A DNA stretch of 52,284 bases from Clostridia bacterium (lineage in GTDB: Bacteria; Bacillota; Clostridia; Christensenellales; Borkfalkiaceae): the NCBI GenBank assembly GCA_017886895.1, contig JAGHJD010000042.1:1-52284 (forward strand), in the 5' to 3' direction. The notes beneath the pieces were generated by a model. That model ran no database searches and was not told where the DNA came from. It worked only from the letters and a program-made list of their open reading frames with translations. The position numbers and the translations under genes were made by a program. Of the stretch, positions 16,572 to 17,113 are shown piece after piece. How positions within the stretch are numbered: position 1 is the stretch's first letter; each line of letters starts with the position of its first letter.

Positions 16572-16597
16572 AAAAAGGCCCTTCCGCGCGGGAAGGG
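16572..16597 (-). terminator. Terminator after the lipoprotein gene
   Basis: CCCTTCC and GGAAGGG form a stem (16579-16597) followed on the minus strand by CCTTTTTCTC. Confidence 0.8.
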
Positions 16598-16644: not shown

Positions 16645-17049
16645 CTATGCCTTGAATACGATATTGATCGTCGTCGAGCCGACTATCTCCGTCATCGTGA
16701 GCGTCGTGTCGTCGAACGTGACGTACATTTCCACGTCTTCGCCGAAAACAGTCGCCAACTCATCTGTATAGGTGATGAGATACCTCCCGTCCTCTTCGGT
16801 ATAATCCATCACGTTTTTCTGGCTGCCGGAGCCTGTCTCCAGAACGAACTGCCCGTTTTCAAAGTATGCGGTTGCCCCCGTGAGCATGGCATCGAAAATC
16901 CCGCCGTCGTCGACGTCCACCGAATCGTATGTGTATTTTGTGGACGTGGGCACGTCTCCCTCGTCGCACGCCGTCAGCGCGAAACACACGCCGACCGCCA
17001 GCACCGCCGCCATGCAGACGACGAGCAGCTTTGACCAGACCTTCTTCAT
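16645..17049 (-). CDS. Small putative lipoprotein under a G-tract promoter
   Basis: A 134-residue protein with a signal peptide (basic MKKVWSK, then a hydrophobic core) and a lipobox LTAC with the lipidated Cys28. The mature part is about 105 residues, acidic and rich in Asp, Thr, Tyr and Val, ending in TTINIVFKA; it looks like a small beta-rich domain. I recognise no family. ATG 17049 has AAAGGAGG 7 bases upstream. Its promoter has a run of nine G between the -35 and -10 boxes, suggesting on/off switching. It is a single-gene unit. Confidence 0.8.
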   Translation of the reverse strand: MKKVWSKLLVVCMAAVLAVGVCFALTACDEGDVPTSTKYTYDSVDVDDGGIFDAMLTGATAYFENGQFVLETGSGSQKNVMDYTEEDGRYLITYTDELATVFGEDVEMYVTFDDTTLTMTEIVGSTTINIVFKA

Positions 17050-17086
17050 TCCCGTTCCTCCTTTGAATAGGATTTTATCGTATTCC

Positions 17087-17113
17087 ATTATACCCCCCCC
17101 CGAAAAATGTCAA
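17087..17113 (-). promoter_or_regulatory. Lipoprotein promoter with a G9 spacer, candidate phase-variable promoter
   Basis: On the minus strand a perfect TTGACA (17108-17113) and a perfect TATAAT (17087-17092) are separated by only 15 bases, nine of which are an unbroken G run (17093-17101). The other consensus promoters in the window have 17-base spacers. Slippage in the G run would change the spacing and so the promoter strength. Confidence 0.75.

Follow-up and report, generated by a model that had tools for sequence, protein, structure and literature searches.

Can a run of G residues between the two boxes of a promoter act as a switch for the gene behind it? The question is raised by a minus-strand promoter in contig JAGHJD010000042.1 (the window, i.e. 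the whole stretch of 52,284 nt analysed). From 17113 to 17087, the minus strand reads TTGACA TTTTTC GGGGGGGGG TATAAT. The -35 box (TTGACA, 17108..17113) and the -10 box (TATAAT, 17087..17092) are perfect hexamers lying 15 nt apart, and the spacer consists of TTTTTC followed by a G9 tract (17093..17101), just as a preliminary description of this DNA had stated. The tract falls within the range used to recognise transcriptional phase variation by simple sequence repeats, i.e. a homopolymer of ∼8 or more bases in the -35/-10 spacer. The arrangement TTGACA-N14-19-TATAAT was found three times in the window, against a mean of 0.01 in shuffled sequences, and the spacers of the remaining two sites are 17 nt long. 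The eleven minus-strand promoters with 17-nt spacers counted earlier are about right, the number varying with the threshold (13 with at least 10 of 12 matches, seven with at least 11 of 12).

The gene behind the promoter (16645..17049, minus strand) starts with an ATG at 17049, 37 nt from the -10 box, and a strong ribosome-binding site, AAAGGAGG (17057..17064, minus strand, read from the sequence), lies in between. An alternative in-frame ATG at 17088 would give a frame of 147 aa, its start codon overlapping the -10 box. A terminator-like hairpin (a consensus match only) is located 3′ of the gene (16579..16597, minus strand). The product, 134 aa long, was predicted by a simple rule to have a signal sequence and a lipobox (LTAC, with Cys28), which agrees with the small lipoprotein proposed at the outset. 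It matched no Pfam family above the cut-off. A beta barrel was predicted for its mature part (mean pLDDT 75.6, with residues 1-30 poorly modelled), and the best matches among solved structures were fatty-acid-binding proteins (best E-value 7.9e-4; TM scores of 0.39-0.53 among the 50 matches listed). Further, the product of a gene located behind another G-tract promoter (locus L062), with 28% identity to the window protein over the aligned part, passed the cut-off for Lipocalin_4. The modelled fold and this relative suggest that the window protein is likely a small calycin-like (lipocalin/FABP-like) lipoprotein.

The host genome is a draft of 1.63 Mb in 87 contigs, 81% complete, from a Candidatus Borkfalkia-like MAG; NCBI places this genus in the order Christensenellales (for the taxonomy, see PMC10408702 and PMC11536998). 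The TsaD protein encoded in the window matched twenty close loci with 75-90% identity. Four of these loci come from MAGs that bear the name Candidatus Borkfalkia, and three of the four genomes (those of L171, L172 and L185) fall in the genus of the window. For twelve of the twenty loci a matching genome was available, and their contigs and coordinates were the same as in genomes already in the set; there were therefore no second strains among them. A tblastn search detected the lipoprotein in none of the twenty tsaD loci, while its two downstream neighbours, a small gene and an M23 peptidase gene, were detected in 19. As judged from this comparison, the lipoprotein gene seems to have been inserted between tsaD and these neighbours. 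Fifteen of the 19 loci have 82-323 nt between tsaD and the aligned start of the neighbour, and the other four have 851-2998 nt. In these four (L174, L184, L186 and L187) some 0.85-3.0 kb follow tsaD, as in the window, and the site is a possible insertion hot spot. The nearest homolog of the lipoprotein, with 64% identity, was found in another genome, G033 (locus L047), at a different place, after what we take, by eye, to be the end of the ribosomal protein L7/L12 gene. It has no promoter, ribosome-binding site or start codon, and is either a promoterless relic or the product of an assembly fault at the tract.

Long G runs as such are not in excess in the window, where G7 gave four overlapping matches against 7.7 expected from a dinucleotide-shuffled null. 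Genome-wide there were 15, 12, 15 and 0 runs of 7, 8, 9 and at least 10 G, while extrapolation from the runs of 4, 5 and 6 G (1003, 159 and 20 in ∼184 kb of DNA selected without regard to G runs) gave about 22, 3 and 0.4 for runs of 7, 8 and 9 G. What stands out is thus the shape of this distribution and the placement of the tracts in spacers: seven of the 15 G9 runs lie in TTGAC...TA spacers, two of them as C9. When shorter tracts were counted as well, the genome showed nine spacer sites; eight had a gene in view, and six of these eight genes encode predicted lipoproteins. Two G9 runs outside spacers were also recorded. One (L001, 1501-1509; C14:5675 in the window genome) lies within the reading frame for a further predicted lipoprotein, and slippage there would cause a frameshift; homopolymers in coding genes are covered in PMC2831843. 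The other (L009, 1501-1509; C49:5764) lies shortly 3′ of a TATAAT, apparently in a gene leader.

The preliminary description regarded this promoter as a lone, unusual case, which it is not, as the same arrangement recurs across the order. The pattern TTGACN0-10 G7 N0-14 TANNNT was found in 22 of 40 genomes of the window's genus, with 73 matches (overlapping ones included) against one for the reversed pattern, i.e. above chance. The poly-C version gave 17 matches in 10 of the 40 genomes against seven reversed; this class is therefore weak and only individual poly-C cases convince. With a stricter G8 pattern, matches were obtained in 108 of 396 Christensenellales genomes, belonging to 42 of 142 genera, with one reversed match among those listed; the maximum, in G071, was 27 per genome (overlapping matches included). 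In g19, a genus from another family of the order, TTGACN0-10 G7 N0-10 TATANT was present in 19 of 25 genomes, with none reversed. Only 12 of 372 genomes of Clostridia from other orders had a match, mostly a single one, and there were two reversed matches. One of these genomes, G806, had six, of the form TTGAC...G9-11-TAGA[AC]T, possibly of independent origin. In a g19 locus (L293, in G415) the 27 bases that form the core of the window promoter reappear unchanged in front of a different membrane or secreted protein. Plasmid records gave no match. Viral contigs, considered as a source of population variants, were discarded: they gave four matches, and the sole one inspected, L252, did not resemble an intergenic promoter by eye. 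The promoter class is real and order-wide.

To see what these promoters precede, 203 sites were examined: 63 from the window's genus, 85 from g19, and a third set of 55 drawn from G131 and further genera of the family, which was a chosen part of the tract-rich genomes from the order-wide G8 search. The simple rule used for the window gene called lipoproteins at 100 of the 176 genes found (29, 33 and 38 in the three sets), against two of the 53 genes behind 68 ordinary TTGACA...TATAAT promoters (Fisher p = 4e-9, 6e-8 and 1e-15, respectively), the controls coming from the window genome only and the G-tract sets spanning several genera. An evident lipoprotein among the controls (L036) was called 'SP/TM' by this rule. 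Other signal or membrane starts amounted to 7, 14 and 5 in the three sets, other genes to 18, 26 and 6, and sites with no called gene to 9, 12 and 6; the ordinary promoters had six signal or membrane starts, 45 other genes and 15 sites with none. Pfam identified two of the 'other' genes: one encodes an ABC transporter ATPase, the second a zinc-ribbon protein.

The reading that we favour, with a probability of about 0.58, is that the G-tract promoters mediate slipped-strand phase variation of lipoproteins by changing promoter spacing. The G tract would be a slippage-prone spacer between the -35 and -10 boxes, in which DNA polymerase would add or drop single G residues, a change seen here only between homologous promoters and presumed to occur within a strain as well. 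The -35/-10 distance would shift by the same number of bases, as it does in six promoter clusters (see below), and sigma-70-type transcription of the lipoprotein would change with it, as expected from established spacing rules and the case of Neisseria fetA. With G9 and a spacer of 15 nt, the window copy would be in a low state, and two added G are predicted to restore a spacer of 17 nt. Its genome has at least nine promoters of this type, which would jointly endow every cell with an individual set of lipoproteins. We infer the switching itself from the features described below. Loss of mismatch repair was rejected as a cause, MutS domain I being present in 371 of the 396 genomes, that of the window included.

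Promoter spacing is scattered in the way that slippage would predict. In ordinary promoters (n = 68) the spacer was 16 nt in 11 cases, 17 in 44, 18 in 12 and 22 in one, so that 67 of the 68 had 16-18 nt. In G-tract sites with strict TTGACA and TATANT boxes (n = 120) it ranged from 14 to 21 nt, with 16-18 nt in 66 and 17 nt in only 10, even though the script's choice of -10 boxes favours a spacing near 17 and thus counters this scatter. Tract length did not correlate with the rest of the spacer in either genus tested (Spearman -0.16, p = 0.32, for 41 sites; -0.13, p = 0.28, for 76 sites), indicating that the remainder does not compensate. In the commonest g19 form (39 of 76 sites) nine non-tract bases are combined with G9 in 23 cases, G10 in 12, and G8 and G11 in two each, producing spacers of 17-20 nt. 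Runs of at least 7 G or C around 69 ordinary-type promoters (one upstream, one in the spacer, none downstream) were too sparse to be of use.

The same data also bear on a different explanation, which we consider rather unlikely: that the tract is a fixed element. C-G9-TA would then be bound by a regulator, or serve as a structural spacer in a weak, activator-dependent promoter, with a length near nine under selection and no switching. Tract length does peak at nine, in 120 of the 203 sites (38 of 63, 50 of 85 and 32 of 55 in the three sets). Moreover, T directly follows the tract in 76 of the 88 sites with a -10 box at a distance of 3 nt or more, mostly as TA or TG; slippage does not explain this, although the search pattern could favour TA to some degree. 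A C9 tract is also kept in front of the ABC transporter ATPase gene in five Borkfalkia genomes (L004, L108, L111, L113 and L119) where the rest of the spacer has changed (the PF00005 match is shown for the copy in the window genome). However, a fixed element fits poorly with tracts whose offset within the spacer varies, which occur on both strands (a few are poly-C) and which range from 7 to 14 bases, plus one of 23, and the six clusters mentioned above change length without compensation. The C before the tract is present at seven of the eight non-promoter G9 runs of the window genome and is therefore not promoter-specific. As for a possible reader, CsoR-type operators are known as G-tract sites. 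CsoR/RcnR (PF02583), the sole regulator family tested, was found in 187 of the 396 genomes of the order, including tract-rich ones such as G071. Neither the window genome (81% complete) nor G031 (96% complete), both of which have G-tract promoters, showed a match to this family; it was thus rejected as a necessary reader of the tract.

The relatives of the window promoter also speak for a fixed element. The window promoter and five related ones (L002, L065, L074, L137 and L140) all have G9 and a spacer of 15 nt, even where the tract has shifted within the spacer, and the 27-base core of L137 is identical to that of the window; the more distant L062 has a spacer of 14 nt. In G021, a clearly homologous promoter has an interrupted tract, G5AG3, and the spacer is still 15 nt long, while a second promoter of this genome, homologous to L003, has G6 instead of G9. 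These constant spacers and altered tracts may represent locked or decayed switches, or a fixed short spacing that has been kept.

Between homologous promoters the tract does vary. The 203 sites yielded 17 clusters of homologs with 59 pairs, of which 51 agreed in the length of the spacer outside the tract and 42 in that of the tract; taking one pair per cluster (17), the non-tract part was the same in 14.2 on average (3.7 for random pairs) and the tract in 11.0 (7.1 for random pairs), i.e. homologous promoters share tract length somewhat more than random pairs do (P = 0.044). In six clusters the tract differed by one base with the rest of the spacer unchanged in length, both between genomes (L292/L345, L294/L358 and L087/L100) and within one genome (L341/L343, L312/L313, and L370/L376 with G11 and G12). 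The L087 and L100 promoters are identical at 180 of 180 flanking bases (98% over 400 nt) and have G10 and G9, respectively. One promoter of a lipoprotein family whose other members have G8 (L383, at G432:C15:9569) has G23 directly after TTGACA and has lost the rest of the spacer. Tract length thus differs both between related species and between paralogs. Among the 17 pairs whose flanks are 90% identical or more (pairs below this were left out, as many were forced alignments with 10-25 gaps), the tract differed in three, one of them (L105/L112) apparently through a base change at the tract edge, while flank gaps would account for about one (2943 nt of flank contained 20 gap openings, nine of which fell in a single pair). 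In these 17 close pairs, tract changes exceed flank indels only about threefold. The observations agree with a tract that is more labile than the sequence around it, but are no proof of rates as high as in classical phase variation.

Equal tracts are frequent among duplicates in the same genome (five promoters with G8 in G432, five with G9 in G141), as would be expected from shared descent only, with duplicated lipoprotein promoters whose tract drifts without any effect on fitness. We regard this explanation as improbable: only 17 homologous clusters were found among the 203 sites, so most sites look unrelated, the two tract-rich genera belong to different families, and the tracts are strongly concentrated at lipoprotein genes. 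An assembly or sequencing artefact is very improbable, since, error-prone as homopolymers are and multi-contig drafts as these genomes are (many of them MAGs), the tracts recur in many separate genomes, the reversed G-pattern control is near zero, and an artefact would not pick the promoter spacers of lipoproteins.

Slipped-strand phase variation at a promoter of this kind, as first proposed for the window, is therefore better founded than could be known from the window alone, because the promoter class is order-wide: it recurs at many loci, mostly before predicted lipoproteins, with uncompensated tracts and scattered spacing. Against the proposal, most tracts have exactly nine bases, and the 15-nt spacer is held in the close relatives examined, including the one with an interrupted tract. 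Whether Christensenellales as a whole possess a phasome, with up to ∼27 poly-G switches per genome, mostly of lipoproteins, creating independent surface combinations in each cell by slippage, is in our estimate an even bet.

Stochastic switching of promoters in gut commensals is known from invertible promoters, which rely on DNA inversion, unlike the present case, where slippage alone would be needed; phase variation in gut Clostridia (C. difficile) is likewise known mainly as DNA inversion. The closest parallels lie elsewhere. In Neisseria fetA and porA, a homopolymer between the -35 and -10 boxes sets spacing and transcription (PMC5320596), the same arrangement as in the G-tract promoters, although in a distant phylum; tract lengths there differ between strains and in passaged cultures, whereas here differences are known between related species and paralogs. 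In Mycoplasma hyorhinis, each gene of the vlp surface lipoprotein family has a homopolymer in its promoter region (PMC10502178); these promoters also serve lipoproteins, but the tracts are poly-A and belong to one gene family, while those of Christensenellales are poly-G (some poly-C) and precede many unrelated lipoproteins. Searches of the open-licence PMC literature listed no report of slippage phase variation in Christensenellales. The mechanism itself has precedents in Neisseria and Mycoplasma; what appears to be new, within these searches, is the lineage, the scale and the range of unrelated lipoproteins involved. If the slippage reading holds, the make-up of the surface would vary from cell to cell in a widespread, mostly uncultured order.
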